Source: Armatimonadota bacterium
GTDB taxonomy: Bacteria > Armatimonadota > Fimbriimonadia > Fimbriimonadales > Fimbriimonadaceae
Assembly: GCA_037138755.1 (NCBI GenBank)
Contig: JBAXHT010000001.1
Coordinates: forward strand, 405,805 to 469,804
Length of the DNA stretch: 64,000 bases
Direction of reading: 5' to 3'
The notes under the pieces were generated by a model, which searched no databases, was not told the origin of the DNA, and saw only the letters and a program-made list of their open reading frames with translations. Of the stretch, positions 10,064 to 48,358 are shown in pieces (the first letter of the stretch is position 1; each line of letters opens with the position of its first letter). The position numbers and the translations under genes were made by a program.

Positions 10064-10072
10064 TGGGCAAAA

Positions 10073-10081
10073 TGTGGATAA
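10073..10081 (-). promoter_or_regulatory. Consensus DnaA box
   Basis: TGTGGATAA is the exact complement of the strong DnaA box TTATCCACA. It lies in an AT-rich 198-bp gap, 181 nt upstream of a DnaA-family gene. Only one perfect box is visible, so autoregulation of that gene or titration is more likely than a full origin. Confidence 0.55.
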
Positions 10082-10261
10082 CTCGTTAATATTTCACTAA
10101 TCTCACTTTTTCAATAACCGCCGAAAACAAGAGTATTCACGAGCATTAACACATCATCCCGATAGAGTGACCGTGCATTTTCGGGTTGCGTTCTTAACGT
10201 TGACGCTCTACACTGTCTTCAGAAATCGATAGATTTCAATTCATTTTTTCGGCTCACAATC

Positions 10262-11245: not shown

Positions 11246-11296
11246 TCCTCGTATTCTTGCGAACTAAAGGGTCCGTGGTTTGCAGTTACAATCCTA

Positions 11297-12538: not shown

Positions 12539-12553
12539 CCGTCACTCCAGGCG

Positions 12554-12559
12554 TAGTAT
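12554..12559 (+). promoter_or_regulatory. -10-like hexamer TAGTAT, leaderless start
   Basis: TAGTAT ends 5 nt before the ATG at 12565 and no Shine-Dalgarno is present, so transcription probably starts at or next to the start codon. Confidence 0.4.
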
Positions 12560-12564
12560 CAATC

Positions 12565-14244
12565 ATGCCCCGCGAATCGCTCGAAATGCTCACCTTGATC
12601 GAGGGTGAACTGCCATCGGATCAGCCCAAACTTAGGGCATACATGGGCGCGCTTCGTCAAACAATTGAGGCCGAAGAGCGCGAAGCAATTGCCAGTGCGG
12701 AAGAGCTCGCCCAGTTTAGAGCAGCCTACGAAAAGCTGACCCAGCCCGCCAACCGTATTGGAGTTTTTTTGAAATGGATAGAGACAAAGGATGTGGGTCC
12801 TTTAGCTTTCGTGCTTCTTGGCGACAGCGAGTATGTCGTCACTTGGGACCCCATCATCGATCCGGAAAAGCTCGTTCTCGGGACACGAGTTCGGCTCAAT
12901 GAGGCGTACGCCATCGTCGGCTTTGCTCCGTCAGCAGATCTGGGCTCTATCGCCAAAGTCTCCGAGGTGCTTGATGAGAATCGACTCCAGATCGGCGGAG
13001 ACCAGCCGGGGGAAGGCACCCGTCTTGTTTTCCGAGCCGAAGCTCTTGCAAGTCAAGAACTCCACTCTGGCGATCGAGTCCGGCTCGATCCTACGGGAAG
13101 ATTTGCCGTCGAACTTCTCCAGAAATCGGAAAACAAGGACTACTTCGTTGAGGAAATCCCAGCAATCAGTTGGGACCAAGTCGGTGGCCAAAAGGAGGCG
13201 ATTCGACTGATTCGTGAAACCATCGAGCAACCGCTCCTGTACCCCGAGGTGTTTGAGGCGTACGGAAAGAAGCCCATCAAAGGAATTCTCCTCTACGGCC
13301 CTCCCGGCTGCGGCAAGACCCTGCTCGGCAAAGCCACTGCCCATAATCTGGCCAAGGAGTACAGCAAGCAACTTGGCCGAGAAGTGAAGGAGTGCTTCCT
13401 CAGTATCTCGGGTCCAAAGATTCTTAATATGTGGGTCGGCGAAACCGAGCGGATGGTTCGAGAAATCTTCGCGACCGCTCGAGCTCGGGCCAAAGAAGGG
13501 CAGCTCGTTTTCATCTTCATGGACGAAGCCGAATCGCTGTTGCGAACCCGATCCTCTGGTCGCAATTTCTCGATGAGCAATACAGTCGTTCCACAATTCT
13601 GCGCCGAACTCGACGGGCTGGTGGAGCTCGAAAATGTCGTCTTGATGCTCACCTCAAACCGTCCAGATTACATTGATCCTGCCATTTTGCGTCCGGGAAG
13701 AATCGACCGAAAGGTGAAGGTAGAACGACCAGACAAGGACGCCTGCCGCCAAATTCTCAACATCTATCTCGGCGCATCGCTTCCGTTCGATCCGGAGCTA
13801 CTCACCGAAAATGACAACGAACCAGAGTGTGCAAGACGTTCTCTGGTTGAAACTGCGATGGACGAAATCTGGCGAAAGACTTCGAACCAGGAGATAGCGA
13901 CAATTTATTTGAGAAATGGCAATCACGAAGTTCTCCACCGAAGCGACCTTGTCTCCGGAGCCATTCTAGAGAGCATCATTGACCGCGCCAAAGAAATCGC
14001 CATACGACGATCACTAGAGAACCGTCAAGTCCCGACGGGTCTAAAGTCCCAAGACATCGTGATAGCCACTCAGCAAGAGTTTGATGAGAACGATATACTT
14101 CCCAAATCGGATCAAGTTGAGGATTGGGTTCAATTGCTGGACGTTAAGGCTGAAAACTGTGTTGCCGTCAAGACAAGACGGACGGATAAGGCAAAGAATC
14201 TGGAAAACGAATTTGGAACACGCAGGAATAAAGGCATCGTCTGA
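12565..14244 (+). CDS. Proteasome-associated AAA ATPase (Mpa/ARC family)
   Basis: A 559-residue ATPase of the Mpa/ARC type. The N-terminus has a charged helical stretch (residues ~20-60), then two OB-like beta domains (~65-200). One AAA domain follows: Walker A GPPGCGKT near 244-251, Walker B VFIFMDEAESL, and an arginine-finger region LRPGRIDRK. In Actinobacteria such hexamers unfold Pup-tagged proteins and feed the 20S proteasome; related systems with the Pup-like UBact are reported outside Actinobacteria. No Pup/UBact, ligase or proteasome subunit gene lies in this window, and the C-terminus (RRNKGIV) lacks a clear proteasome-docking QYL end. Function as an unfoldase is inferred. Confidence 0.85.
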   Translation: MPRESLEMLTLIEGELPSDQPKLRAYMGALRQTIEAEEREAIASAEELAQFRAAYEKLTQPANRIGVFLKWIETKDVGPLAFVLLGDSEYVVTWDPIIDPEKLVLGTRVRLNEAYAIVGFAPSADLGSIAKVSEVLDENRLQIGGDQPGEGTRLVFRAEALASQELHSGDRVRLDPTGRFAVELLQKSENKDYFVEEIPAISWDQVGGQKEAIRLIRETIEQPLLYPEVFEAYGKKPIKGILLYGPPGCGKTLLGKATAHNLAKEYSKQLGREVKECFLSISGPKILNMWVGETERMVREIFATARARAKEGQLVFIFMDEAESLLRTRSSGRNFSMSNTVVPQFCAELDGLVELENVVLMLTSNRPDYIDPAILRPGRIDRKVKVERPDKDACRQILNIYLGASLPFDPELLTENDNEPECARRSLVETAMDEIWRKTSNQEIATIYLRNGNHEVLHRSDLVSGAILESIIDRAKEIAIRRSLENRQVPTGLKSQDIVIATQQEFDENDILPKSDQVEDWVQLLDVKAENCVAVKTRRTDKAKNLENEFGTRRNKGIV

Positions 14245-14295
14245 CGTTGGGGGCAAGACCATCCACTTGGATGAGTCTCTCAAAAAGTAAATCAA

Positions 14296-15105
14296 GTGGT
14301 AACAATAGCGTCATCTTCGCAAGAACCTGGCATTCGTCTCAATTCTGATCTCGTGGGCTCAACCGCCAAGTTCCAAGTCCATTTCGATATTGAAGTCAAC
14401 TACCTTTTCGAAGGCTCAGCTCGGTACTTCTTTGGACGTACCGACTGGAACCTTCCCGAGCGCAGACTAGTTGCTTTTTGGGGAACAACACCACACCGTC
14501 TCATTGACGTGTCATCCAACGCCCGGTTGGCGACGTTGCGAATACCCCTGGTTGACTATTTGAAATGGGAGTCACCCAAGCCACTCTTCGAAGGGATCTT
14601 TGAAGGAGGAGTCATCATCGAACCGATCGAGCTCACGGCTCCTCAACGAATGGATCGATGGCTACTCGAGTATGCCGCAGAAGATCCGAACCTCAGATTG
14701 GCCGCTCTTTTGGAGATGCAAGCAGCAATGCTACGCTCTCAAGTGGCTGTTCCAGCGCGAAAGACATCCAATTCCAACTCAGAGGCAGAACCGGTAATGG
14801 TGATGTGTAAGCACATCAACGCAAATCTCCGAGAGTCACTCACTTCAAGCGATGTGGCCGACGTTGCTGGACTCCATCCGAACTACGCGATGCGGCTCTT
14901 CAAGCGACTCACAGGTATGACAATCCAAGAGTATGTCGTCCACAGCCGAATGGCCAATGCCCAGCGACTCCTTCTTCGCTCCAAAGAGAGTGTCGAGGAT
15001 ATCGGAGACAAAGCCGGTTTCCAGTGCGCTAGCCAATACTATGCGACTTTCAAGAAGGTCACGGGCTATACGCCACTCCAGTTCCGCAAAAAGCACCTAG
15101 CCTAA
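14296..15105 (+). CDS. AraC-family transcriptional regulator
   Basis: A 269-residue protein. The N-terminal ~150 residues are a cupin-like sensor (NYLFEGSARYFFGRTDWNLP). The C-terminal ~95 residues are a typical AraC double helix-turn-helix (LTSSDVADVAGLHPNYAMRL and VEDIGDKAGFQCASQYYATF, ending in GYTPLQFRKKHL). Members usually respond to sugars or other small metabolites. It starts at GTG 14296, 51 nt after the ATPase gene, and its stop overlaps by 4 nt the stop of the convergent thymidine phosphorylase gene. The target is unknown. Confidence 0.85.
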   Translation: MVTIASSSQEPGIRLNSDLVGSTAKFQVHFDIEVNYLFEGSARYFFGRTDWNLPERRLVAFWGTTPHRLIDVSSNARLATLRIPLVDYLKWESPKPLFEGIFEGGVIIEPIELTAPQRMDRWLLEYAAEDPNLRLAALLEMQAAMLRSQVAVPARKTSNSNSEAEPVMVMCKHINANLRESLTSSDVADVAGLHPNYAMRLFKRLTGMTIQEYVVHSRMANAQRLLLRSKESVEDIGDKAGFQCASQYYATFKKVTGYTPLQFRKKHLA

Positions 15106-16445
15106 GCAGGACGCACTAATATCGGACGCGGTGGGACTGGTGTTGAAACCACGCTCACCGCAAAATTGATCCGGTCGCTCGCAAACTGAATTCCCTTCTG
15201 ATCCCTTGCGTGAATCGTGACCAGAGGCTGTCCTTCGGTAACGAAGTCGCCAATCTTGGCATGAACCTCCAGCCCGACTGCTAAGTCGATCTCGTCATCC
15301 TTCGTCTTCCTCCCTGCTCCGAGTTCAAGGGCGATCTCGCCCAGTACTCGAGCATCCATCTTGGAAACACAACCGGAAACGGCGGCATTCACGGTCACCA
15401 TTTCCGGAGCTTTGATGAGCCAACTAGGATCATCCAACTGGACCGTTGCTCCTTGCGCCGAGACCCACTCCTGCGCCTTGCGAAGTGCTCTGCCTGAGCT
15501 GAGCGTCGCCTCAACTCGTTCGAGAGCATCTCCCGCCGAAGGAGACAAACCGCTGACTCGAAGTGTCAGGGCTGCCAGGTATCTCACTAGCTCCCGGAAG
15601 CGTTTCGAGGTTGAACCGAGTTGGTCCTCGGGCTTGGTCAATACCTCGATCGCCTCTTGCACTTCGAGCGCATTTCCGATGCAGCGCCCCAAAGGCTGGT
15701 CCATATCCGTGATTGCGGCAAACACGTTCAGCCCTGCCTTCTTACCAACCGACACCAAAGCATCCGCCAGTTTCTCTGCATGCTCCCTTGTCGGATTGAA
15801 CGAACCAGATCCACATTTCACATCCAATACAACCGTCTCGGCGCCACCCGCGATCTTCTTGGAGAGGATCGAGCCGACAATTAGAGGCAATGAACTCACG
15901 GTTTCCGTAACGTCCCGTAGCGCATACAACGTCTTGTCCGCCGGAGCGAGGTCCGAGGTCTGACCCGCGAGCACGATTCCGATCTTCTTGGCCTGTTCGA
16001 TCATCGCCTCCGGTTCGATCTCGGTTGTCATCCCCGGAATCGCTTTCAACTTGTCCAGCGTTCCACCAGTGATCCCGAGGCCCCGTCCGGACATCTTCAC
16101 CACGGATAAACCACATGCCGCTAGGAGAGGAGCCAGGACTAGGGTTGTCTTATCTCCGACCCCTCCTGTGCTGTGTTTGTCAACCCAGGGCTTCGGGACT
16201 CCGGTGAGATCAAGCCGTTGGCCGCTTCCTGCCATGGCAAGGGTTAGGTCGGCAGTTTCGGCGTCCGAGAGCGGTTTCAGATAAGCCGCCATGAGCCATG
16301 CGGCGAGCTGGTAGTCGGTTGCCGATCCATCCGCAGCGGCGGAGGCGAGTAAATCGAGGTCCGCTCGCGAGTGCACCCCGCCATCGCGCCGAGTCGCGAT
16401 CAGGCTCCGAATATCCGTACTTGCTTCCTTCTTCTTCCGAGCCAT
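15102..16445 (-). CDS. deoA: Thymidine / pyrimidine-nucleoside phosphorylase
   Basis: The 447-residue product has normal family length. It carries the phosphate-binding motif KHSTGGVGDK (residues 90-99) and the downstream SGRGLGITGGTLDKLKAIPG signature. The enzyme splits thymidine or uridine with phosphate to give the base and deoxyribose/ribose 1-phosphate. A C-terminal barrel-sandwich-like region (LEVHAKIGDFVTEGQPLVTI) is also typical. It stands apart from other deo genes here and converges on an AraC gene, which may or may not regulate it. Confidence 0.93.
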   Translation of the reverse strand: MARKKKEASTDIRSLIATRRDGGVHSRADLDLLASAAADGSATDYQLAAWLMAAYLKPLSDAETADLTLAMAGSGQRLDLTGVPKPWVDKHSTGGVGDKTTLVLAPLLAACGLSVVKMSGRGLGITGGTLDKLKAIPGMTTEIEPEAMIEQAKKIGIVLAGQTSDLAPADKTLYALRDVTETVSSLPLIVGSILSKKIAGGAETVVLDVKCGSGSFNPTREHAEKLADALVSVGKKAGLNVFAAITDMDQPLGRCIGNALEVQEAIEVLTKPEDQLGSTSKRFRELVRYLAALTLRVSGLSPSAGDALERVEATLSSGRALRKAQEWVSAQGATVQLDDPSWLIKAPEMVTVNAAVSGCVSKMDARVLGEIALELGAGRKTKDDEIDLAVGLEVHAKIGDFVTEGQPLVTIHARDQKGIQFASDRINFAVSVVSTPVPPRPILVRPA

Positions 16446-36467: not shown

Positions 36468-37427
36468 ATGCCAACTCTGCCCCGCATCACCGGAACGTTT
36501 CTCGACGAAATCACTCATGACATCCCGAGTCAGAACTGGACGGAGCGGCACTGGCGGCGCGAATTCGAGCTTTATAGCAAGATCGGTCTCGACACCCTGA
36601 TCATCATTCGGGCCGGTTACAAGAACAAGTGCATCTACCCCTCGCAGGTGATTCCGTCACTGCTTCCGGTTTACGACGACATTGGAGAGATGTTTTTCTC
36701 ATTGGCCGATGAGTTTAATCTGAAGCTATTCTTTGGAACCTACGACAGTGGGTTCTACTGGTGGCGGCGAACTTGGTGGAAGGAAGTCGATCTGAACAAG
36801 GCATTCATCGACGAAGCTTACAACCGATACGGTCATCACAAAAGCTTTGCCGGTTGGTACCTAACACACGAGACGGGGAAGAACGATGCGCACATCATCG
36901 AGATCCACAACCACATCGGCCAGCATTGCAAGTCAAAAGCCGATCTGCCCGTTCTGATCTCGCCTTATCCCCAGGGCGCAAAGCAAAGCGGTGAAAACGC
37001 GCTTGCGCTCGAAGAGAGCTTTGATCACTGGGATCGGGTTTTCGCCGAGACAAACAAATCGTTCGACCTCTGCGCCTTTCAAGACGGTCAGGTGCATTAC
37101 GAAGAACTTCCGAAGTTCATCGAGGGTATCGCCGCTCTCGGCAAGAAGTACGGGATCACCATCTGGTCGAACCTCGAAACCTTTGACCGAGACATGCCCA
37201 TCAAGTTCCCTCCGGCAGATTGGCGCTACCTGCGCTTTAAGCTAGAAACCGCCGCCCAGATCGCAGAAAAGATCATCACGTTTGAGTTCCCACACTTCGT
37301 CTCGCCGTTCAGCTGCTACCCCTCGGCGCATAACCTGTTCGAGCGCTACATGACCTACGAAGGTGCAAAATGGAACCAAGGATTCGACCGAGAAATCCTC
37401 GATTGGGTGAAGTCGCAACGAGACTGA
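36468..37427 (+). CDS. DUF4434 TIM-barrel protein
   Basis: A 319-residue protein with the DUF4434 look: ITGTFLDEITHDIPSQNW, then LIIIRAGYKNK, FGTYDSGFYWW and FAGWYLTHETG. The family is predicted to be a glycoside-hydrolase-like TIM barrel, with Glu residues (YLTHETG; WSNLETFDRD) as possible catalytic groups, but no activity is established. There is no signal peptide, so it is likely cytoplasmic. It is divergent from cutC. Confidence 0.8.
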   Translation: MPTLPRITGTFLDEITHDIPSQNWTERHWRREFELYSKIGLDTLIIIRAGYKNKCIYPSQVIPSLLPVYDDIGEMFFSLADEFNLKLFFGTYDSGFYWWRRTWWKEVDLNKAFIDEAYNRYGHHKSFAGWYLTHETGKNDAHIIEIHNHIGQHCKSKADLPVLISPYPQGAKQSGENALALEESFDHWDRVFAETNKSFDLCAFQDGQVHYEELPKFIEGIAALGKKYGITIWSNLETFDRDMPIKFPPADWRYLRFKLETAAQIAEKIITFEFPHFVSPFSCYPSAHNLFERYMTYEGAKWNQGFDREILDWVKSQRD

Positions 37428-38984: not shown

Positions 38985-39060
38985 GGCTCCGTAGCTCAGG
39001 GGATAGAGCGCCTCCGTCCTAAGGAGGGCGTCGGGGGTTCGAGTCCCTCCGGGGCCGCCA
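38985..39060 (+). tRNA. tRNA-Arg (anticodon CCT)
   Basis: A complete 76-nt cloverleaf. The acceptor arm GGCTCCG pairs with CGGGGCC, the D arm contains GCTCAGGGGATAGAGC, the anticodon stem CCTCC/GGAGG encloses GTCCTAA with anticodon CCT (reads AGG), the T arm contains GGTTCGAGTCC, and CCA is encoded. Its 3' half from the anticodon loop (39016) to CCA (39060) recurs three times downstream, marking it as an insertion target. Confidence 0.97.
39016..39060 (+). repeat. Attachment-site core in the tRNA-Arg gene (copy 1)
   Basis: This 45-bp segment, from the anticodon loop GTCCTAA to the terminal CCA, is the reference for the downstream copies at 40731-40775, 45509-45553 and 48314-48358. Tyrosine recombinases commonly use the anticodon loop or T loop of tRNA genes as crossover sites, so it is read as the chromosomal attachment core. 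Confidence 0.8.
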
Positions 39061-39264
39061 GGGTTTTGATTGTCCGATCCAGAGACAGAGTCTGCAATTT
39101 TTTCCATAGATGCAGTTGACACCATCGGGAGGTGAGGTCAGGTTCTTCTGGTAATCGGAAATGGTTCTGGCAGAGTTTGATGAATATTGCAGGATTTTGA
39201 GGCATCGTCAACCTGCGCCAAGCACTCGTTTTGCCATAAACAAAACAAAACTGCGTTCTCTAGG

Positions 39265-39298
39265 TTGACAAACACTCGATACAGCAGCCTTATATAGT
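39265..39298 (+). promoter_or_regulatory. Promoter candidate of cassette 1
   Basis: TTGACA at 39265-39270 and TATATAGT at 39291-39298 form sigma-70-like boxes with a spacer of about 20 nt, slightly long. The start site would fall just inside the annotated GTG, which hints that the downstream GTG at 39323 could be the real start. Confidence 0.4.
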
Positions 39299-40063
39299 GT
39301 GTTTGAAAACTTTTACAAATCGGTGTGGGAATCACTTGAGAAGAACGAGAAGATCAAGTGGCTACTTCGGCAACACGGAGATGACTTTGACTCGCATGTT
39401 AGCAACGAGCTTCTCGGACGCGGTCAAACAGTTTGCGATACTGCTCTTCTAGGTCAACTCTATGCGTACCGTTATGCCCCAATGCATTTCTTTGCGCTGA
39501 GAAAGGTTCTCCCCTGCATGAAATGCGAGACTAGGTTGATCGACTTTGGAACGGGGCCTGGAACCGCATTGTTAGCGATTGCAGACAAAACAAACCAGAT
39601 AATCCATCACGTTGGACTGGAGATTGCCGAGGGAATGCGACTTGTTTGCGAAGATGCGATAACTCTTCTCGCAAGTCATATCGGAGAAAGCGTTTCTCAC
39701 GCACTCCCTGGAAAAGCATTCTGGGAAGACGCAGAAGGCTCATCACCAGAGCAACAGAGGGTCTTTATGTTCTCATACTTTTTCGGTCAAGATCTCAACG
39801 CCTCATTTGTTCAGGCAGTAGCAAGAACGATAAAATCCATCAAAAGAACAAACATGACACTTATATACACAAACCCCGTCGGACCGTATGCGAGTTGGAT
39901 GCCTAACAATGATATTCATCACTGGTATCGCCGGTTCTGTGAAGTCCTAGGTCATGAACCGAAGATTAGAACGACATCATACTCTTATGAAGCACTCTCG
40001 AATCTTGCCAAGCGAACCAAGAGAAGAGGCGAATGTGCGTATGAAGTCTGGAGTCTAACTTGA
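39299..40063 (+). CDS. SAM-dependent methyltransferase, Rsm22-like
   Basis: A 254-residue protein (GTG start; GTG 39323 is an alternative). Residues ~50-110 read YAYRYAPMHFFALRKVL, then RLIDFGTGPGTALLAIAD, the SAM-binding motif I. The Tyr/Arg-rich helix before that motif resembles the Rsm22 family of ribosome-associated methyltransferases. The 4-nt overlap with the AlkB-like gene shows coupled translation. In eukaryotic ALKBH8 an AlkB domain and a methyltransferase act together on tRNA wobble uridine, so an RNA-modification role is plausible but inferred. Codon use is AT-richer than neighbours. Confidence 0.65.
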   Translation: MFENFYKSVWESLEKNEKIKWLLRQHGDDFDSHVSNELLGRGQTVCDTALLGQLYAYRYAPMHFFALRKVLPCMKCETRLIDFGTGPGTALLAIADKTNQIIHHVGLEIAEGMRLVCEDAITLLASHIGESVSHALPGKAFWEDAEGSSPEQQRVFMFSYFFGQDLNASFVQAVARTIKSIKRTNMTLIYTNPVGPYASWMPNNDIHHWYRRFCEVLGHEPKIRTTSYSYEALSNLAKRTKRRGECAYEVWSLT

Positions 40064-40647
40064 GTCTTTTCGAATCGAAGGGTACAGCGCCAGTCGGATT
40101 ACAGATAATCAATCAGTTCCTATCATTATCGGAAGCCATGGTTGTTCTTGAGAAAATAGACTCTAATCTTTGGCTTTCCGATTTATCCCGAAGGGTTCAG
40201 CATTATGGATGGCGTTATGACTACCGGACAAGGAAATTGCATCCAGATTCTTATCTCGGACCACTTCCGGATTTTCTCTCAGGTCTTTGCCAACGAATCA
40301 AGCAAGAGCAATTGATGGAGGTTGTTCCGGATCAGGTGATCGTCAACGAATACTTGCCTGGTCAAGGGATTGCGCCTCACATCGATTGTGAGCCTTGCTT
40401 TGGTCCCGAGATTGCGACGATCTCGCTAGGTGACGAGTATCCGATGAATTTTCGGCACACGATCACAAACGAAGAGTTTCAACTGTTTCTTCCCGTCGGG
40501 TCGATCTGTGTTCTAAGTGGAGAGTCGCGATACTTGTGGACACATGAGATTGCGAAGCGCAAAAGCGATTTACTTCCAGGTGGTGGTCGGAAAGCTAGAT
40601 TGCGTCGAGTCTCAGTAACCTTTCGCTCTGTGTTGGTCTCTCTCTAA
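40060..40647 (+). CDS. AlkB-family 2-oxoglutarate/Fe(II) dioxygenase, ALKBH8-like
   Basis: A 195-residue oxygenase. Fe ligands are H107 and D109 in GIAPHID and H162 in SRYLWTHEI; the 2-oxoglutarate-binding Arg lies in the final RRVSVTFR. The strings EYLPGQGIAPHID, ATISLG and SGESRYLWTHEIAKRK are much closer to the ALKBH8 oxygenase domain than to E. coli AlkB, pointing to an RNA (tRNA) rather than DNA-repair substrate. This is an inference from motif similarity. It pairs with the upstream methyltransferase. Confidence 0.85.
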   Translation: MSLFESKGTAPVGLQIINQFLSLSEAMVVLEKIDSNLWLSDLSRRVQHYGWRYDYRTRKLHPDSYLGPLPDFLSGLCQRIKQEQLMEVVPDQVIVNEYLPGQGIAPHIDCEPCFGPEIATISLGDEYPMNFRHTITNEEFQLFLPVGSICVLSGESRYLWTHEIAKRKSDLLPGGGRKARLRRVSVTFRSVLVSL

Positions 40648-40671
40648 GTCTCTCAGTTAGGGTGGATTTTG

Positions 40672-40696
40672 GGAGACATCCAGAGACGTCCGTAGA
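40672..40696 (+). repeat. GAGAC-core direct repeats and GTAGA motif before copy 2
   Basis: GGAGACATCC (40672-40681) is followed directly by AGAGACGTCC (40682-40691) and GTAGA (40692-40696). GTAGA starts exactly 39 nt before the 45-bp tRNA-derived copy. An inverted AAGTCTCTCA lies at 40646-40655. The arrangement recurs at the other cassette ends and may be recombinase or accessory-protein binding sites. Confidence 0.55.
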
Positions 40697-40730
40697 TTCA
40701 AAATCGAGTTTTTTTACCCAACTTATTTCA

Positions 40731-40775
40731 GTCCTAAGGAGGGCGTCGGAGGTTCGAGTCCCTCCGGGGCCGCCA
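40731..40775 (+). repeat. tRNA-Arg 3'-half copy 2 (attachment-site repeat)
   Basis: 45 bp matching the tRNA from GTCCTAA to CCA with a single difference (44/45; GTCGGAGG instead of GTCGGGGG). The 5' half of the tRNA is absent, so it cannot be a functional tRNA. It marks the junction between cassette 1 and cassette 2. Confidence 0.85.
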
Positions 40776-40849
40776 GGGTTCTCAGCCAGAAAAGGTAGTC
40801 TTTCACTTCGGATTAGTCCTGATGGAACCCTGTTGTGGAAGGGGCGTAC

Positions 40850-40855
40850 TAAGTT
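40850..40855 (+). promoter_or_regulatory. -10-like hexamer TAAGTT of cassette 2
   Basis: TAAGTT is followed by ATTAGG (6 nt) and the ATG at 40862, the same spacing as other leaderless starts in the window. It lies 75 nt inside the cassette, so the cassette carries its own promoter. Confidence 0.4.
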
Positions 40856-40861
40856 ATTAGG

Positions 40862-41359
40862 ATGCGAGACTTGAAGCTCATCAAGCGATGTTTGATTCTT
40901 CTTGCACTGGTTTGGGCTCAGATCCCTGCCAGTGTGCTCGCTCAGCTTTGCCAGCCAACAGTCACTTGCGCGATGCCATGCTGTGTGGCCAAAGCGATTC
41001 ATCCTACGGCTAAAGCGAAGCCCGTTTGTGCGATGTGTCCTGATGAGGGTGCCACTGATTCTAAAGATTCGAGCAAATCCCACGAGACTGAGATTTCATC
41101 AAAATCCACCTCAGAATCGTGCCCTTGCAAAATCGCACCTCGAACCTATCCCGCAGAGCATTCCTTTACTGCTTGTTTCACAAACGCTTCAGGCCATGAT
41201 CAGGCGTTTTACGCGTGCACGGACGTAAAGCCGCTCAGGTTTGAACTGGCTATTTTTACGACAATGCGCCCTGGAATCATTGGATCCGATTCGGGTCCGC
41301 CAATTCGAGGACCAAGTTGCGTCTGGCTTGGCCGCGCTCCTCCTACTGCAGTTGCTTAA
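40862..41359 (+). CDS. Exported Cys-rich small protein, possible metal binder
   Basis: A 165-residue protein with a signal peptide (KRCLILLALVWAQIPASVLA). The mature region is rich in Cys, arranged as CAMPCC, CAMC and CPC, with a Ser/Lys/Glu-rich linker between. Such spacing suits soft-metal binding (copper or mercury). No family is recognised. It heads the metal-handling operon of cassette 2, 71 nt before the next gene. Confidence 0.6.
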   Translation: MRDLKLIKRCLILLALVWAQIPASVLAQLCQPTVTCAMPCCVAKAIHPTAKAKPVCAMCPDEGATDSKDSSKSHETEISSKSTSESCPCKIAPRTYPAEHSFTACFTNASGHDQAFYACTDVKPLRFELAIFTTMRPGIIGSDSGPPIRGPSCVWLGRAPPTAVA

Positions 41360-41430
41360 TCTAGCTGTGCTCCATCACTGAGCCGGTCACTTTGCGTCTC
41401 ATCGTACTTATCAACCCATTAGGAAAACAC

Positions 41431-42648
41431 ATGTTAACAACCATCGCTCTATCGGCGGTTTTGATCGGACGGGCCCCCTCACTCTTGGGCCCTGCCGTTG
41501 CAGAATCGACCTCATTCAATTCGATTCACACTGGATTCACGCCACAGAATTTAGCTACTCAAACGAACAAGGTCACGTTCGGCAAGTATCAAGCCGAACT
41601 CCGTATTCCAGAAGGCGGGCTCTTCGCTGGAGAGGAGCTCGATGTTGAGTTTCGGGTGACCGATACCACTCAGAAGGATGCCGTAGAAGAAGGCTTCAAA
41701 GGCGTGGGAGCGATCGAAGCAACCGCAGTGATGACGATGCCGAGCATGATGGGAATGCCAGAGGTGAGACCCAAAGTTCATCGTGAGGGAGTGCCGGGTG
41801 ACTACGGCATGGAACTGTACTTCGCCCACGGCGGAGAGTACAAGATCGACCTGGCTCTGAACATTCCGGGAGAGGGTGTGAAGAACATCTCGTTTTTGGT
41901 AGATGTCAAAGATGAAAAGCCAGCGACCATCAAAGCTCAGCCGTACAAACTGAAAGTCGTTAACTGGCCGAAAAATGCCAATGCTGGAGTAAGAACCAAC
42001 CTTAAATTGCAAGTCATAGACTCAAAGACCGGCGCTGTACAAACGTCGTTTGACGAAGCCCATACGAAGCTCTTTCACCTGCTTATCGCTAGTAAGGATT
42101 TGAACTGGTTCGTACACGAACACCCGGTCATGGATGCCAAGGGCACCTGGTCCGTTCCGATCACGTTCCCAGCTGGGACAAAGTATTGGGTCTACGGCGA
42201 CGTCGCTCCGACGGGCAAAGGCTCTCGTGTGCTCATCACTTCCGTCCAAGTTCAAGGTGCTAAGCCTGCTTGGAACACGAAGTTGAGCCTCAGTCGAACT
42301 GGCTCGGATGGTGGTCTAAAGGGACTCCTCTCTACGTTGGAGCCTATTGAAACTGGCCGCAAGGCGACCCTCCAAGTGAAGCTCTTTGACACTAAAACCG
42401 GGATTCCGGCTGGAAATACCGTTAAATGGCTGGGAGCCGCGGGTCATATGATGATCTTTCACAAAGATGGTCAAACCGTTGTCCACAGCCACCCAGCCGA
42501 AGATGCTGAGAATGAGGCGTTGGTAAAACGTGGCATTGTGCGGTTTACCGGGAGATTCCCGAAGGTCGGAACTTATAAAGTCTACGCCCAGTTTGACTGG
42601 AACGGAAAAGTCCGAACTCTGCCTTTTGCCGTCGAGGTCACAGAATGA
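41431..42648 (+). CDS. Exported protein with duplicated H-D-H-H domain (YtkA/FixH-like), metal resistance candidate
   Basis: A 405-residue protein. The ATG at 41431 has AGGA 6-7 nt upstream and starts a signal peptide (MLTTIALSAVLIG); an earlier TTG at 41392 is less likely. Residues ~45-150 resemble a YtkA/FixH-like beta domain with MTMPSMMGMP (Met-rich). Two later domains carry the same pattern H-x6-D-x5-H-x-H-P with identical spacing: HLLIASKDLNWFVHEHP from His216 and HMMIFHKDGQTVVHSHP from His339. The His and Met richness suggests copper binding in the periplasm. Its stop overlaps the next start. Confidence 0.7.
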   Translation: MLTTIALSAVLIGRAPSLLGPAVAESTSFNSIHTGFTPQNLATQTNKVTFGKYQAELRIPEGGLFAGEELDVEFRVTDTTQKDAVEEGFKGVGAIEATAVMTMPSMMGMPEVRPKVHREGVPGDYGMELYFAHGGEYKIDLALNIPGEGVKNISFLVDVKDEKPATIKAQPYKLKVVNWPKNANAGVRTNLKLQVIDSKTGAVQTSFDEAHTKLFHLLIASKDLNWFVHEHPVMDAKGTWSVPITFPAGTKYWVYGDVAPTGKGSRVLITSVQVQGAKPAWNTKLSLSRTGSDGGLKGLLSTLEPIETGRKATLQVKLFDTKTGIPAGNTVKWLGAAGHMMIFHKDGQTVVHSHPAEDAENEALVKRGIVRFTGRFPKVGTYKVYAQFDWNGKVRTLPFAVEVTE

Positions 42649-43109
42649 AACGAATCCTAGTTGCCCTTCTTTTCATGATTTCCGCTTTTGCATTCTCTCA
42701 CGAGGGCGATTGTCCACACTGCAAGATGCCATTGCTCCAAAACACAAAGGATCAGGACAACGAGGTTGTGGTCAAGTTTGGGAACAAGCGGATTGAGTAC
42801 CGATGTGTCTATTGCGTTTTCAAAGACCAGAAGCGATACAAGAGCGACCTGATTGTTTACGCTCCCGGCGAAAAAGTCGGTGAGCCGATTGTTCTCAAGC
42901 GAACAGACGGCAAATGGTCGGCTCCAGAAGGCGCGGTTTTTCTGAATACATTCAAGAAGCACTCCGAATGCGCCGAGCTCTCGCGGGCGTTTAGCTCTAA
43001 AGCAGCCTTCGAAAAGTATGTTGCGGATAAGAAAGTTGTCGACGCAAAACCACTATCGCTCACCGAGTTCATTGATCTGGTGATGAAGCCAGTTGGAACT
43101 GACAAATGA
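42645..43109 (+). CDS. NosL-like exported metal-binding protein
   Basis: A 154-residue protein with a signal peptide (RILVALLFMISAFAFS) followed by two CxxC pairs: C23-P-H-C26 and C54-V-Y-C57. The C-terminal part (HSECAELSRAFSSKAAFEKY) matches the C-terminal domain of the next gene's product (HPNCSVWSRVFTSRSAFDKF), so the two are paralogous. NosL proteins are copper-binding periplasmic or lipoprotein chaperones; the resemblance here is moderate. Coupled by 4-nt overlaps on both sides. Confidence 0.65.
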   Translation: MKRILVALLFMISAFAFSHEGDCPHCKMPLLQNTKDQDNEVVVKFGNKRIEYRCVYCVFKDQKRYKSDLIVYAPGEKVGEPIVLKRTDGKWSAPEGAVFLNTFKKHSECAELSRAFSSKAAFEKYVADKKVVDAKPLSLTEFIDLVMKPVGTDK

Positions 43110-44605
43110 GCGTCACGGCCCTTCTTTTGGGCGCGAGCCTTCTCGCCCAGGAGACTCCTCGATTGCAATCGGAGATGCCTGTACCTCCGAAAAATCTGCC
43201 TCGCTGGCTCGACGGTCGCGGGGCGGATCACTTGTTTTATCGGACTGCTCCGTACAACTGGGCGATCAATCGGATCCCGGATTTTGCGAAGGACATGTTT
43301 GCCACGGGCGTTGGCCACGCCATGGCCTATGAAGCACTTGTTACGGGAAAACAACGAGAGCTGGAAGGCAAGACATTTGCGACGATCGACTACGTTCTGA
43401 GGCATCCGCCCTCAAAGCCAGTTGATGAGGCGGCGATCTCTCCGCGATTTGTTCAGAAGTTTGGCTACTTGGAGAAAGTATTTGACTGGGCGCACACACT
43501 GCACTTTCAGACCATCGATGTTTTCATGCACCCTGGCTGGACCGAAGCCCAGAAGGAAGCCGCGATCGAGCGGCTTTGGACGTTTTATTCGGCTGAGCCC
43601 TATGCTATCTCGGGTCTTCCGATGAACATGGAGTACTTGGATAGCTTCCCGTACAGCGGAGCATTTCGTCAGAACTATCCGAAGGTCAACGGTCTCTTCT
43701 GGGGTTACCACTGGCTCCAGACCGTGAACTACGACATGCTTTTCCGGGTTCCTGTAAGCGACCAAAAGCCACAGTACAGCTTGGTCGGCCAGAGATATCA
43801 CGAAACCGAGCTCTACAAAACGGATCGCGATTTCATGCCGATGACGGCGGAGATGAGCCCACGATTTGCTCGTCGCTTTCCTCAGATTGCCAACGCTTTT
43901 GACAATCTGCACATGCTTCACGACAACGTGAACGACATTCTTGCCCAGACCAATCTGTCGGATGCCGAGAAGGAGACACAGGTGAAGATCGCGATCTACC
44001 GCGTTCTGGATTCGACGCACAAAGGCGAAGAACCAGGCGACGGAGAACCAAGAACCGTGCATGACCACCGATTTCCAAATGGGATGCCCGGCATGGGAAT
44101 GATGGTGGGCAGTGATGAAGACACTATGTACATGTCCGGTATGGGCTGGATGGACATGAGCGGGTGCGCCCACTGCTCGATCTCCCTTCCTGAAGAGGGT
44201 CCGTGGGGAGCAACGGTTTCTGCCGAAGGCTGGACAATGACCGTGCGGTGCATGATGTGCGCTCGGGATATGGCCGCCGAGACTCCGGGGCGTGCCATTA
44301 TTAGGGCTGCCACCGAAGACGAGAATCGTCTCCTTGTGATGATCTCGGATGAAGAAGGAAACTGGAGCTCGAATATCAAGGGAATCGTGTTCTTGGAGGT
44401 CTTTGGCGAGCACCCGAACTGCTCGGTGTGGTCAAGGGTGTTCACCTCTCGATCTGCCTTCGACAAGTTTGTCGCAACCGTCCCCGAACTCAAAGGAGCG
44501 AAAGCACTGAGCCTCGAGGAGTGGGCCAAACTGAACCACGGAACTCCTGACACTTACACGAAGATTAACAAGCCAAACCCCTACCGAAAGGGTGGTGCAA
44601 AGTGA
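43106..44605 (+). CDS. Large exported protein with C-terminal NosL-like domain
   Basis: A 499-residue protein with a short signal-like start (SVTALLLGASLLAQ). Residues ~20-330 form a helical region with many Trp, Tyr and His that I do not recognise. A Met-rich segment (NGMPGMGMMVGSDEDTMYMS, residues ~325-345) follows. The C-terminal ~140 residues carry GCAHCS and RCMMCARDM (two CxxC pairs) and match the preceding 154-residue protein. The Met and Cys clusters suggest copper capture. It overlaps both neighbours by 4 nt. Confidence 0.6.
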   Translation: MSVTALLLGASLLAQETPRLQSEMPVPPKNLPRWLDGRGADHLFYRTAPYNWAINRIPDFAKDMFATGVGHAMAYEALVTGKQRELEGKTFATIDYVLRHPPSKPVDEAAISPRFVQKFGYLEKVFDWAHTLHFQTIDVFMHPGWTEAQKEAAIERLWTFYSAEPYAISGLPMNMEYLDSFPYSGAFRQNYPKVNGLFWGYHWLQTVNYDMLFRVPVSDQKPQYSLVGQRYHETELYKTDRDFMPMTAEMSPRFARRFPQIANAFDNLHMLHDNVNDILAQTNLSDAEKETQVKIAIYRVLDSTHKGEEPGDGEPRTVHDHRFPNGMPGMGMMVGSDEDTMYMSGMGWMDMSGCAHCSISLPEEGPWGATVSAEGWTMTVRCMMCARDMAAETPGRAIIRAATEDENRLLVMISDEEGNWSSNIKGIVFLEVFGEHPNCSVWSRVFTSRSAFDKFVATVPELKGAKALSLEEWAKLNHGTPDTYTKINKPNPYRKGGAK

Positions 44606-45369
44606 AGCACATTGGACCTGGAATCTGCGTTAGCCTTCTCGGTTCTGCAACGGCCTTTGGGAGCGATCATAACAATATCGACAAGGAGCGTCCGCTGCGA
44701 TTCGATGACGCTTACTCGATTGCTTATCGTTCGTTCGAGTTTCAGAGTGGATTCAGGCTAGACACGTTCAACCGGGAAAGACCCGTCTATAACTTCAGAA
44801 CGGAGGTTCAGTATGGCTTCGCCAAAAACAAGGACTTTTCCATCGGACTGGAGCCGTTTGTGAGTAATCAAAGTGGAAAGCTCATCGGGAACGTGCTGGA
44901 GCTGAGCTACTTCGAAGGAGTTTCAAGGGAGATTGGGAACAACCCAGCCTTTGGATATCGAATCGACGCGGGTCTGCCGGTCTCGGGTGGGAATGGAACC
45001 GAGTTTCGAGTGCGAGGAATTCTAACAAAAACTGTGAGCCACTACGACAGGCTCCACCTAAACGTCGATTTCTACAACTCGACATCGGGCTTAAGCAGTG
45101 AGCGATCAAAGCGGATAGGATTCATCCTTGGTTATTCCAATCCGGTGGGATATCCGACAAGTTTTGACCAAACTTTTTTGGCAGAGCTTGGCTTTGAGCA
45201 GGGGCGGCTGACCGGCTCAGGATATAACAGTTGGGTCGGATTGGGAATCCGAAGGCAACTCTCGGCGACCGGGGTTCTCGACCTTGGGGTTCAGCTTGAC
45301 CTGCAAGGAGCTGGTTCAGAGCCACTCTCACCGTTTCGGCTTTCGGTTGGTTACTCGAAGAGCTTCTGA
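44602..45369 (+). CDS. Outer-membrane beta-barrel candidate of the metal operon
   Basis: A 255-residue protein with a signal-like start (GPGICVSLLGSATAFG). Its body is made of alternating-hydrophobicity strands (FRTEVQYGFAKNKDFSIGLE; RIGFILGYSNPVGYP) and it ends in Phe (LSVGYSKSF), as outer-membrane proteins do. It overlaps the upstream gene by 4 nt, so it is likely the outer-membrane partner of the operon, similar in position to CopB in copper systems. Sequence relation to CopB is not evident. Confidence 0.65.
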   Translation: MKHIGPGICVSLLGSATAFGSDHNNIDKERPLRFDDAYSIAYRSFEFQSGFRLDTFNRERPVYNFRTEVQYGFAKNKDFSIGLEPFVSNQSGKLIGNVLELSYFEGVSREIGNNPAFGYRIDAGLPVSGGNGTEFRVRGILTKTVSHYDRLHLNVDFYNSTSGLSSERSKRIGFILGYSNPVGYPTSFDQTFLAELGFEQGRLTGSGYNSWVGLGIRRQLSATGVLDLGVQLDLQGAGSEPLSPFRLSVGYSKSF

Positions 45370-45373
45370 AATA

Positions 45374-45474
45374 TGAGAGACTGCTATCAAGCAAGCTCCA
45401 AGTTCACATTGAGAGACTTGTCGGAAGTTGCTTCGCAAGGGGCCAGGTCTCTCAATAGCCAGCGCGTCGGTAGA
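45374..45474 (+). repeat. GAGAC-core repeats and GTAGA motif before copy 3
   Basis: TGAGAGACT occurs at 45374-45382 and 45410-45418, and its inverse GGTCTCTCA at 45446-45454. GTAGATTCAAA starts at 45470, exactly 39 nt before the tRNA-derived copy and nearly identical to the GTAGATTCAAA before copy 2. Confidence 0.55.
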
Positions 45475-45508
45475 TTCAAATCAGAATTTTTGAACCTATT
45501 TTTCTTCA

Positions 45509-45553
45509 GTCCTATGGAGGGCGTCAGGGGTTCGAGTCCCTCCGGGGCCGCCA
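45509..45553 (+). repeat. tRNA-Arg 3'-half copy 3 (attachment-site repeat)
   Basis: 45 bp matching the tRNA 3' half at 43 of 45 positions (GTCCTATGG for GTCCTAAGG; GTCAGG for GTCGGG). The 5' half is missing. It separates cassette 2 from cassette 3. Confidence 0.85.
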
Positions 45554-45563
45554 AGATTTGAAC

Positions 45564-48077
45564 TTAGCGTGGTTTCGAAACAGGGGTCATAGTCGCCATC
45601 TGCATTCGAAAGAACCAATGTTTAGCAAGCTCGGCACACAAAACGTAGGAAGCCACAATGCCCAGCAATCCGCCAATCATCGGCACGGGGAGCTGAGTGA
45701 ATCCGAGGGAAATCGACAGAGCTGTAAACGGAAGGACAAGCACCGCAATGCAAGTAGCAATCGTGGTGAAGAGCAAAGCAATTGAAGGACGGGACTGGCC
45801 CAGCCAGCGCCGAGATCGAAAAACGAGCACGATCAAACTCGCAGAGATGACGGATTCCGTAAACCATGCCGTTCGAAAGACTTCTGGAGTGGTCTTGAGC
45901 CAAATCAACAATCCGAAAGTTGCAAAATCGAAGACCGAGCTGAGTAAGCCGAAAATTAGCATAAACCTTCGCAAAAATCCTAAATCCCACTTCTGCCGTT
46001 GCTGAAGCACCTCATCGTCCACGTTATCGCCCGCAATGGTCATTTCTGGGAGGTCTGTCAGAAGGTTAGTCAGAAGCACTTGCTTCGCGAGAAGTGGTAG
46101 GAACGGAATCAGAAGGCTTGCTCCGGCAAGACTGAACATGTTTCCGAAGTTCGCACTGGTTGCCATGAAGATGTACTTCATCGTGTTCGAAAACGTTCTC
46201 CGACCCTCCAGTACAGCACCGACGAGAACCCCAATATCTGGCTTCAACATAACGAAGTCGGCTGCTTCTTTGGCTACATCAGCGGCGTTGGCGACAGAGA
46301 TGCTTACGTCTGCACTGTGAAGGGCTGGACCGTCGTTGACTCCGTCGCCGATGTAACCCACAACAGAACCGCCTCGTTTGAGGGCCAAGATGATACGCTG
46401 CTTCTGACGTGGCTCTATTTCGGCAAAGACAGAGACGTTCTTGGCTCTCACCAGTAGAGCGTCATCTGAGAGTCCATCCAGCTCAGTACCAGTGATGAGT
46501 TGTCTGTTCAGGGCAAGGGTTGTTGCGATATAGGCGGCAACGTGTGCGTTGTCTCCTGTAATCATCTTGAGCTCAATTCCAATATCGGCAAGTCTCTTGA
46601 TCGTAGCAGCACTCTCCGCCCGGAGCGGATCATGGAGCAGGAGCATCCCCTCAAAGGTCATACGTACCTCGCTCATATCAGTCTGTTCAGACTCATTCGC
46701 TAGTTCGCGACTTGCAACACCAAGAACGCGAAAACCTTGTTCACTGAAGGTCTTAAAGCTGGCTTCGATCAAAGGTCGCACATCCGATATCTCAACCATC
46801 CCATTGGCCGTGCGCACCTCAGAGCAACATTCTAAAACTGTGATCAACGCTCCTTTCATGATGAGTGTAAGCGTTGCCTGAGAGCGAACCAAGACACTGA
46901 TTCGTTTTCGCTGGAAATCGTAAGGCGTTTCTCCCAACTTCTCATATCCCTGTTGAACCCCTGGAGATGCACTCTTTCGTAGGGCTTCATCAATTGGATT
47001 CACGTAGCCAGATTCAAAAATTGCGTTCAGCTGACTGAGTTTTAGCACGTTTGGCGAGTCGTTACTCAGTGCATCTACCGCTCGGGCCACTTCGACAGTG
47101 CCTAGAGTGAGAGTCCCAGTTTTATCCGAGCAAAGAACATCCATTGATCCAAAGTTTTCGATGGAGGACAGTCTCTTCACGATCACGCAATCTTTGGACA
47201 TCGCCATTGCGCCACGAGACAAGTTTAAGCTTACAATCGCTGGTAGAAGTTGAGGGGTGAGTCCCACCGCTAAGGCCAGGGAAAACATGAATGACTCAAG
47301 CACCGGCCGGTGGGCAATTAGATTCACCATCAGTACAAAGAGAGTCAAGAAGATCGTCAATTGAATGAGCATCGCTCCGAGCTGCTTGATCCCCTTTTGA
47401 AAGTCTCCCTCAGGACGCTTAAGACTAAGCGCACTTGCGATGCCGCCTAGTCTCGTGGCTGAGCCTACGTTTACGACAAGCATCTTGGCTCTCCCGCTAA
47501 CCACGTTTGTGCCCGCGAAGACCTGGTTTCCTGCGGACTCAACTGACTTTTCGACCGGAAAACTCTCACCAGTCAGACTAGATTGGTCTACGAAGAGTGA
47601 GTCTTCCTCGAGCAGCAAGCCATCACCCGGGATGACTGAGCCTGCCGATAAAATGGCAATATCGCCACGAACAACCGAGGTAAAAGGGACATCTTTTTCA
47701 CAACCATCTCTAAGCACCACGGCTTTTGTTTCCACGAGTTTCATCAGCTCTGCGACTTCGTTACCAGCTCTGAACTCTTGGACAAAACTCAACAAGCCAC
47801 TGGCCACAAGGATAAAGACGATAATGAGGCAGTCCGTCATCTCTCCAAAAAATGCACTCAAGATCGCAGCTACGATAAGCAGGATTTGGATGGGATTGAT
47901 GAATTGCGCAATGAGACCCAAAAAGATTGAATTAGATCTTCCACCGGGGCTGGGCAACTCTGAGTGTCGCCTCTCGGCCTCCTTAGTTGTCAGGCCCTCC
48001 GAAACCGTTTGGCAACGTCTCAACTGCTCCAGCACGTTCAAGGATGAATCTAGATCAGGAATATTGACTTTGTCCAT
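45564..48077 (-). CDS. mgtA: Magnesium-translocating P-type ATPase (MgtA/MgtB family)
   Basis: 837 residues from the ATG at 48077 (TTG 48155 would add 26 residues of unlikely sequence). The actuator domain has SLTGESFPVEK, the phosphorylation site is SDKTGTLT, and the nucleotide and hinge motifs are MKGA and GDGVNDGPALHSAD. The MgtA-specific NPIQ and ANFGNMFS segments and about ten transmembrane helices are present. The pump imports Mg2+ across the inner membrane. It is carried as single cargo in a tRNA-bounded cassette and lies 10 nt inside its boundary. Confidence 0.92.
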   Translation of the reverse strand: MDKVNIPDLDSSLNVLEQLRRCQTVSEGLTTKEAERRHSELPSPGGRSNSIFLGLIAQFINPIQILLIVAAILSAFFGEMTDCLIIVFILVASGLLSFVQEFRAGNEVAELMKLVETKAVVLRDGCEKDVPFTSVVRGDIAILSAGSVIPGDGLLLEEDSLFVDQSSLTGESFPVEKSVESAGNQVFAGTNVVSGRAKMLVVNVGSATRLGGIASALSLKRPEGDFQKGIKQLGAMLIQLTIFLTLFVLMVNLIAHRPVLESFMFSLALAVGLTPQLLPAIVSLNLSRGAMAMSKDCVIVKRLSSIENFGSMDVLCSDKTGTLTLGTVEVARAVDALSNDSPNVLKLSQLNAIFESGYVNPIDEALRKSASPGVQQGYEKLGETPYDFQRKRISVLVRSQATLTLIMKGALITVLECCSEVRTANGMVEISDVRPLIEASFKTFSEQGFRVLGVASRELANESEQTDMSEVRMTFEGMLLLHDPLRAESAATIKRLADIGIELKMITGDNAHVAAYIATTLALNRQLITGTELDGLSDDALLVRAKNVSVFAEIEPRQKQRIILALKRGGSVVGYIGDGVNDGPALHSADVSISVANAADVAKEAADFVMLKPDIGVLVGAVLEGRRTFSNTMKYIFMATSANFGNMFSLAGASLLIPFLPLLAKQVLLTNLLTDLPEMTIAGDNVDDEVLQQRQKWDLGFLRRFMLIFGLLSSVFDFATFGLLIWLKTTPEVFRTAWFTESVISASLIVLVFRSRRWLGQSRPSIALLFTTIATCIAVLVLPFTALSISLGFTQLPVPMIGGLLGIVASYVLCAELAKHWFFRMQMATMTPVSKPR

Positions 48078-48254
48078 TTGGGTAGTAGTCCACCTTAGCA
48101 TCTTTGATTGACTCAAGAGTTCTCCCAAAATGGCCAATAGACGGTTCAAAAACAATTACTAGTCGGATCAAAGCGGGATGATCTAAGCGCTTATCGGCAC
48201 CATCGATCAATGTGGAGACCCGCCGTTTACGGTTTACGAACGCTGAGTATAGAA

Positions 48255-48279
48255 GGAGACGTTCGGAGACGTTCGTAGA
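48255..48279 (+). repeat. Tandem GGAGACGTTC repeats and GTAGA motif before copy 4
   Basis: GGAGACGTTC occurs twice in tandem (48255-48264 and 48265-48274), immediately followed by GTAGA (48275-48279), which starts exactly 39 nt before the tRNA-derived copy. A third GGAGAC lies at 48214-48219. Confidence 0.6.
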
Positions 48280-48313
48280 GCTGAACAGCCGTTTTCAATG
48301 CAGTTTGTCTTCG

Positions 48314-48358
48314 GTTCCAAAGAGGGCGTCGGGGGTTCGAGTCCCTCCGGGGGCGCCA
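48314..48358 (+). repeat. tRNA-Arg 3'-half copy 4 (outermost attachment-site repeat)
   Basis: 45 bp with 41 matches to the tRNA 3' half; differences lie in the anticodon loop (GTTCCAAAG for GTCCTAAGG) and acceptor (GGGGGCGCCA for GGGGCCGCCA). The T-arm block is identical. It closes the array; chromosomal genes resume with the M23 peptidase. Confidence 0.8.

Follow-up and report, generated by a model that had tools for sequence, protein, structure and literature searches.

The window analysed here is a stretch of 64,000 nucleotides from an Armatimonadota bacterium of the family Fimbriimonadaceae (GenBank assembly GCA_037138755.1, contig JBAXHT010000001.1, positions 405,805 to 469,804). It corresponds to C1:405805-469804 of the genome that we call G000, which comprises 3.27 Mb in 20 contigs. 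Within it, an intact tRNA-Arg(CCT) gene is directly followed by three elements in tandem, E1, E2, and E3, and fragments of the 3ʹ half of the same tRNA stand at their far borders, each preceded by an end that carries a GTAGA motif (Table 1). This end and the elements closed by it are the subject of the present analysis. The genes of E1 and E2 lie on the plus strand and the gene of E3 on the minus strand. No match to Pfam Phage_integrase was found inside any of the three elements, and their annotated cargo includes no integration or transfer genes. The closest solved relative of the E1 2-oxoglutarate (2OG)-Fe(II) oxygenase is ALKBH8 (PDB match, E 8.7e-28), and its partner has no Pfam match and is presumed to be methyltransferase-like from a motif. 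In the E2 cluster, one protein without a Pfam match is taken by us to be NosL-like, and another has a YtkA match below the cut-off.

Table 1. Coordinates of the tRNA-Arg(CCT) gene and of elements E1 to E3 in the window
Feature	Position	Strand	Evidence
Native tRNA-Arg(CCT), probable insertion target; anticodon loop GTCCTAA intact	38985..39060	+	ARAGORN; Rfam tRNA match
Element E1, 1715 bp, no integrase	39061..40775	+	Interval from native tRNA to next 3ʹ half; no Phage_integrase match inside
E1 cargo: 254-aa methyltransferase-like protein (presumed) and 195-aa 2OG-Fe(II) oxygenase	39299..40647	+	
E1 right-end module, 62 nt: GAGAC 10-bp direct repeats at 40673 and 40683, GTAGATTCAAA at 40692-40702, degenerate inner site at 40711-40721	40669..40730	+	
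tRNA-Arg 3ʹ half, copy 1; 1 mismatch over last 41 nt	40731..40775	+	
Element E2, 4778 bp, no integrase, five-gene cluster	40776..45553	+	
E2 right-end module: GTAGATTCAAA at 45470-45480, inverted TTTGAACCTA at 45489-45498	45447..45508	+	
tRNA-Arg 3ʹ half, copy 2; 2 mismatches over last 41 nt	45509..45553	+	
Element E3, 2805 bp, no integrase	45554..48358	+	
E3 left-end inverted half-site TTTGAACTTA, 9/10	45557-45566		
E3 cargo: 863-aa magnesium-type P-type ATPase	45564..48155	-	NCBIfam TIGR01524, 672.6 bits (cut-off 610.75); Pfam
E3 right-end module, decayed: GAGAC repeats at 48256 and 48266, GTAGA at 48275 (7/11 of half-site)	48252..48313	+	
tRNA-Arg 3ʹ half, copy 3, most decayed; 3 mismatches over last 41 nt	48314..48358	+	

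An earlier note on this DNA had placed GTAGA exactly 39 nt before each of three tRNA repeats, and this holds to the nucleotide: the motif starts at 40692, 45470, and 48275, and positions 40731, 45509, and 48314 are the first of the tRNA-Arg(CCT) 3ʹ halves. When the three 150-nt upstream stretches were dinucleotide-shuffled 20,000 times, a 5-mer common to all three copies at one offset arose twice, and a pairwise run of 11 nt or more occurred a single time. The native tRNA, as the note had also stated, has no such motif at that distance, its own 5ʹ half occupying the place. The conserved block, at about 62 nt, is wider than the motif first noticed; pairwise, the copies agree at 35, 33, and 27 of the 62 nt before the repeat, compared to 23, 20, and 21 of the 88 nt farther out, and copies 1 and 3 have GAGACGTyCGTAGA in common. 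In relatives, the motif stands at -39 or -40 and once at -37. Of the 49 tRNA halves for which 150 nt or more of upstream sequence was covered, 22 had GTAGA at -37 to -40 and one had it elsewhere within the 150 nt; for the Arg halves only, which were found by tRNA similarity without use of the motif, the former count was 11 of 37. An alignment (A2) of 25 ends, chosen among the tRNA halves and excluding both a second Arg arm type (see below) and halves that lack a clear end, gives a common order of two 10-bp GAGAC repeats, GTAGATTCAAA, 8 nt, TTTGAACCTAC, 10–14 nt, and the anticodon loop.

The native tRNA and copy 1 are identical from the first nucleotide of the anticodon loop (GTCCTAA) onward, and copies 2 and 3 keep the same register with decay. 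The earlier note had offered a core or an arm site as the nature of the motif. Because tRNA identity, and with it the likely crossover, begins in the anticodon loop 39 nt away, and because the inverted pair lies outside that crossover and is flanked by the 10-bp repeats, the motif most probably belongs to a pair of inverted arm-type sites and is not the core. We consider it improbable that the 62-nt block is the crossover core itself, with GTAGATTCAAA-N8-TTTGAACCTAC as a dif/lox-like site of two 11-bp arms around an 8-bp spacer. The symmetry and the spacer length would suit such a site, and 71.6% of cells pair at the true register compared to 25–45% when it is slid; however, the identity between the native tRNA and the orphan halves starts at the anticodon loop, the native tRNA region contains no such inverted pair, and the left-end site past CCA is usually a single half-site in either orientation.

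The inverted repeat might instead fold as a single-stranded hairpin like integron attC, which would make the array integron-like in its chemistry. Integrase-less cassette arrays with an inverted repeat at each junction do resemble clusters of attC sites lacking integron-integrases (CALINs) (PMC11389934). Against this stands the absence of covariation above shuffles, on which the hairpin was rejected: four pairs changed on both sides, a number reached by 66 of 500 shuffles, and the covariation score was reached by 81 of 500. Integron cassettes lie in one orientation relative to their site, whereas the cargo of E1–E3 lies in either, and the predicted integrase structure (see below) is nearer to the Tn1549 and lambda integrases than to the integron integrase. 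A hairpin is therefore very unlikely, and the lack of compensatory changes favours two protein-binding half-sites over a folded strand.

The earlier note also took the motif for part of a conserved end that defines a family, and suggested scanning relatives with a profile of the upstream sequence. A loose pattern, GTAGAN{50,65}GTTCRANYC, gave 13 matches in G000 and 13 with the reversed control, the only real-looking ends being the three of the window and one at a tRNA-Leu gene; since it was no better than its control, a tighter pattern and a model were used instead. The tight exact pattern gave 13 matches in 6 of 201 genomes, and its reversed control gave none. The model of the end, built from the 62 nt alone and so free of tRNA sequence, returned 53 matches in 22 of the 113 related genomes scanned, of which 24 were training sequences (the 25th, from genome G072, lies outside the 113) and 29 were new; the right end of E1 was recovered at C1:446474-446533. 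In 15 of the 29 new matches, the sequence directly after the end was a tRNA 3ʹ half differing at no more than 4 of 36 positions, namely that of Pro(GGG) in eight, Val(GAC) in two, Val(TAC) in two, and Val(CAC), Leu(GAG), and Thr(GGT) in one each. As a control, 150 random 130-mers were examined; such a half was present in two, and the others had at least 12 mismatches. Together with Arg(CCT), the end is found at seven tRNA genes. The suggested scan has thus succeeded out of sample, supporting the view of a family-defining end.

In G000 itself, a fourth end, GTAGATTCAAA...TTTGAACC followed by a tRNA-Leu(GAG) 3ʹ half, is located at C1:353523. It closes an element of 39,986 bp behind the native tRNA-Leu gene (C1:313545-313630). 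Some 185 nt past that tRNA lies the gene for a tyrosine integrase, and genes for a replication-relaxation protein and a conjugation-type coupling ATPase are found in the element as well. Other large elements that have a tyrosine integrase beside their target tRNA are closed by this end too.

That the 3ʹ half of one tRNA occurs three times in direct orientation, on one strand and within 10 kb, could in principle be due to segmental duplication of the tRNA region with no insertion at all. We regard this as extremely improbable. The copies share an upstream block that is missing from the native tRNA, and in other genomes this block is found ahead of the halves of different tRNAs, which refutes the simple form of this explanation; in addition, the three intervals differ in content, and E2 stands alone behind tRNA-Arg in genome G016.

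The two ends were compared across 39 intervals, 8 with and 31 without an integrase of the family. Just past CCA, the left end of most integrase-bearing elements has a single TAGGTTCAAA-type site, which does not vary in place: it stands at position 10 in forward orientation for Leu, at 7, again forward, for Val(TAC), and at 4–5 in inverted orientation for Arg. Arm sites were present at both ends in all eight integrase-bearing intervals. The integrase-less intervals had a right site in 26 of 31 and a left site in 14 of 31, compared to 34/2000 and 24/2000 for random stretches. As the non-Arg set was partly found by motif, its right-end count is not independent; in the Arg set, which was found by tRNA similarity and makes up 27 of the 31, the right site was present in 22. 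No Phage_integrase match was obtained in any of the 30 integrase-less intervals tested with Pfam, and the remaining one, from G072, was tested with the family profile only. Two arm types occur at Arg, that of the window and another that closes the integrase-bearing elements of genomes G026 and G048. In the window, tRNA halves stand at all borders of E1–E3, with clear right half-sites in E1 and E2 only and a left half-site in E3 only.

The integrases of the family match Pfam Phage_integrase, and residues R215, K254, R322, H347, and Y357 are invariant and are read as the putative catalytic set. The alignments covered 19 of 30 integrase loci (A1; L125, because of its reading frame, and distant or truncated loci excluded) and 21 of the 22 loci obtained from a scan of 84,980 species genomes (A3). 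The titles of these 22 records are Armatimonadetes, Fimbriimonadaceae, Chthonomonas sp., one unnamed bacterium, and one methanogen. The last, L232 (JADZEW010000013.1), is titled Methanoregulaceae archaeon, and its integrase is placed as in G030:C13, a genome of this bacterial family; the record is probably a mislabelled bin. In the predicted structure of the Arg integrase of genome G021 (mean predicted local distance difference test, pLDDT, 80.1; predicted template modelling score, pTM, 0.61), the N-terminal domain consists of three strands and a helix, a layout which we take to be that of arm-binding domains. In a fold comparison, the best matches were the Tn1549 and lambda integrases, which the catalytic part of the model resembles, ahead of the integron integrase. 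A tree of 23 of the 25 hits, with one truncated and one divergent sequence excluded, grouped the six Arg integrases in one clade, the four Leu integrases in a second, and the two Pro integrases in a third. The one shared recombinase that the earlier note had inferred finds no support here: the clades are largely tRNA-specific, and G000 holds only a Leu-type and a Val-type member, of 378–391 aa.

Considering the ends, their targets, and the integrases together, we believe with good confidence that GTAGA is the outer arm-type half-site in the conserved right end of integrative elements that insert in the tRNA anticodon loop in Fimbriimonadaceae-like Armatimonadota, and that E1–E3 are integrase-less members. 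In the mechanism that we propose, the att site of the excised circle would consist of the GAGAC repeats, GTAGATTCAAA-N8-TTTGAACCTAC, a core in the anticodon loop, the tRNA 3ʹ half, and another TAGGTTCAAA-type site. With its N-terminal domain on the arm sites, the tyrosine integrase would carry out strand exchange in the anticodon loop, the incoming 3ʹ half would complete the tRNA, and the old 3ʹ half would be displaced to the far end. Serial insertion at one tRNA would then build a stack with the newest element adjoining the tRNA; the decay of the window halves with distance (1, 2, and 3 mismatches) fits such an outward displacement of old halves. E1–E3 would resemble cis-mobilizable elements (CIMEs), formerly moved by an Arg-type integrase of the same family, either in trans or with an integrase-bearing neighbour, and would by now be partly decayed. 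As G000 has no Arg-type integrase and end sites are missing or decayed, E1–E3 may now be fixed.

Several observations weigh against this interpretation. The absence of an Arg-type integrase from G000 is one, and the state of the ends is another: E1 and E2 have no recognisable left half-site, the right half-site of E3 is decayed, and none of the three elements has both ends intact. Among the integrase-less intervals, the right site is missing in 5 of 31. A full tRNA half was lacking at 14 of the 29 new model matches, where decayed or truncated halves (8–13 mismatches) were found at four, traces by eye only at nine, and none at one (G014). The Val integrases are mixed in the tree, so that clade and tRNA do not correspond one to one, and G021 is the one genome in which the arm type of the window was seen alongside an Arg integrase from the G020/G021 branch.

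The evidence on movement comes from comparisons between genomes. An integrase-less element of 9087 bp is 98.3% identical between G039 (808153-817239) and G048 (108614-117700), two genera; their comparison gene, presumably sufB, is 74.6% identical. On this sequence comparison, integrase-less DNA of the family is shown to have been transferred horizontally between genera. Since the identity extends at 95.8% over a collinear 30 kb, across the element borders, a 30-kb composite may have moved as one, and the collinear stack fits mobilisation with an adjacent related element. In G016, tRNA-Arg is directly followed by a single element to which E2 is homologous along the greater part of its length. 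The two are 76.4% identical over 4542 bp, compared to 90.9% for sufB, which fits separate arrivals better than common descent. In an empty-site comparison, the downstream flank of the window was not found within the stretches of G016 and G001 examined; the upstream gene at 36468-37427 lies near the tRNA in both genomes too, with 95–96% protein identity.

Some further observations concern tRNA-Arg in relatives. One integrase-less tRNA-Arg element with RND-type metal-efflux-like genes (named by eye) is present in two genera (G048C19 81534-89795 and G011C4 7406-15181). At G051:C1:1493143-1496576, two decayed halves lie in the 3.3 kb that separate two complete tRNA-Arg(CCT) genes. A comparison of G039:C2:863511 with G048:C19:128238 and 117701 showed that two displaced halves of G048 match the 3ʹ half of the G039 tRNA gene and not that of the present G048 gene, one of them exactly in the compared stretch. 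This match suggests that insertions rewrite the 3ʹ half of the tRNA, in which case the displaced halves of G048 would be a fossil record of its replacement by mobile elements.

The integrase-less state can be explained in another way. E1–E3 could be fixed relics, that is, former integrase-bearing islands whose integrase was deleted after insertion and which no longer move; the anatomy would be the same as we propose, with a difference only in the origin of the integrase-less state and in continuing movement. This possibility falls somewhat short of an even chance. The partly decayed ends of E1–E3 and the lack of an Arg-type integrase in G000 suit it, and CIMEs are described as decayed integrative and conjugative elements (ICEs) or integrative and mobilizable elements (IMEs) (PMC5704250). 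However, integrase-less elements are the majority (31 of 39), many of them short and compact, and the 9087-bp element moved recently between genera, perhaps inside the 30-kb composite.

The gene pair of E1 bears on how cargo might change its target. The same pair is, inverted, the cargo of a tRNA-Pro element with the same end in G072 (C4:66061-68834). It was found in 5 of the 113 genomes searched, G000 included, and in G072, and it stands beside a tRNA gene in all six (Arg, Pro, Ala in three, and Ser), not always inside a tRNA-flanked element: in the four other genomes (loci L303, L304, L305, and L306), where it adjoins tRNA-Ala or tRNA-Ser, the 20–60 kb examined around each pair contained neither a further tRNA half nor an integrase of the family. 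ALKBH8 modifies tRNA wobble bases, and a functional link of the pair to the adjoining tRNA is possible. The occurrence of the pair at Arg here and at Pro in G072, both with the family end, would be explained if cargo were re-targeted by swapping the half. We therefore put forward, tentatively and as an unlikely extension, a cassette system working like CALINs on a tRNA platform, in which the 62-nt arm module plus a tRNA 3ʹ half would suffice to make a gene mobile and a family of integrases from the same bacterial family would serve in trans.

No description of this element family was found in the open-access literature searched, and we consider as new the family itself, the portable end module across seven tRNA targets, and the integrase-less majority in the set examined. 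With a recognisable end module, stacks can be found by sequence alone and each linked to a candidate integrase clade, and movement in trans becomes directly testable. The cargo in this group includes a NosL-like gene cluster, RND-type efflux genes, a magnesium-type ATPase, and an ALKBH8-like oxygenase; through such insertions, accessory genes would pile up behind a tRNA gene in a little-known bacterial group.

Among known systems, CIMEs keep attL and attR without integration or transfer genes, and their site-specific accretion has been reviewed (PMC5704250). Like them, the integrase-less elements described here stand in tandem with others at a tRNA 3ʹ end; unlike them, they have a 62-nt end module common to seven tRNA targets, and 31 of the 39 in the set examined are integrase-less. 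The ssrA islands of Dehalococcoides, 31 in tandem at one RNA gene and 16 of them with an integration module, carry accessory cargo and have the 3ʹ end of the gene as direct repeats with a conserved 15-bp motif immediately before them (PMC3146451). The stack behind one RNA gene, the 3ʹ-end repeats with their upstream motif, and the accessory cargo are alike, whereas those islands use the serine recombinase DsiB and the T-loop of tmRNA, and ours a tyrosine integrase, the anticodon loop, several tRNA genes, and a longer module. CALINs are likewise integrase-less cassette arrays potentially mobilised by an integrase elsewhere (PMC11389934); in contrast to them, our elements show no attC-like hairpin signal, lie in mixed orientation, insert in tRNA genes, and reach about 50 kb.

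The Islander survey of genomic islands that have a tyrosine integrase and lie at tRNA genes lists 2083 class A islands with an anticodon-loop crossover, requires an integrase gene per island, and includes only 4 tandems with three or more members (PMC4383910). Our elements share with these islands the 3ʹ tRNA fragment at the far end and, in all likelihood, the anticodon-loop crossover, but an integrase gene lies inside only 8 of the 39 intervals and in none of E1–E3. Short integrase-less stacks would thus be invisible to a survey of that type. Tycheposons, described from marine bacteria, are islands of cargo that use a tyrosine recombinase and several tRNA genes as targets (PMC10872708, PMC11389934), and the elements reported here resemble them in these respects.

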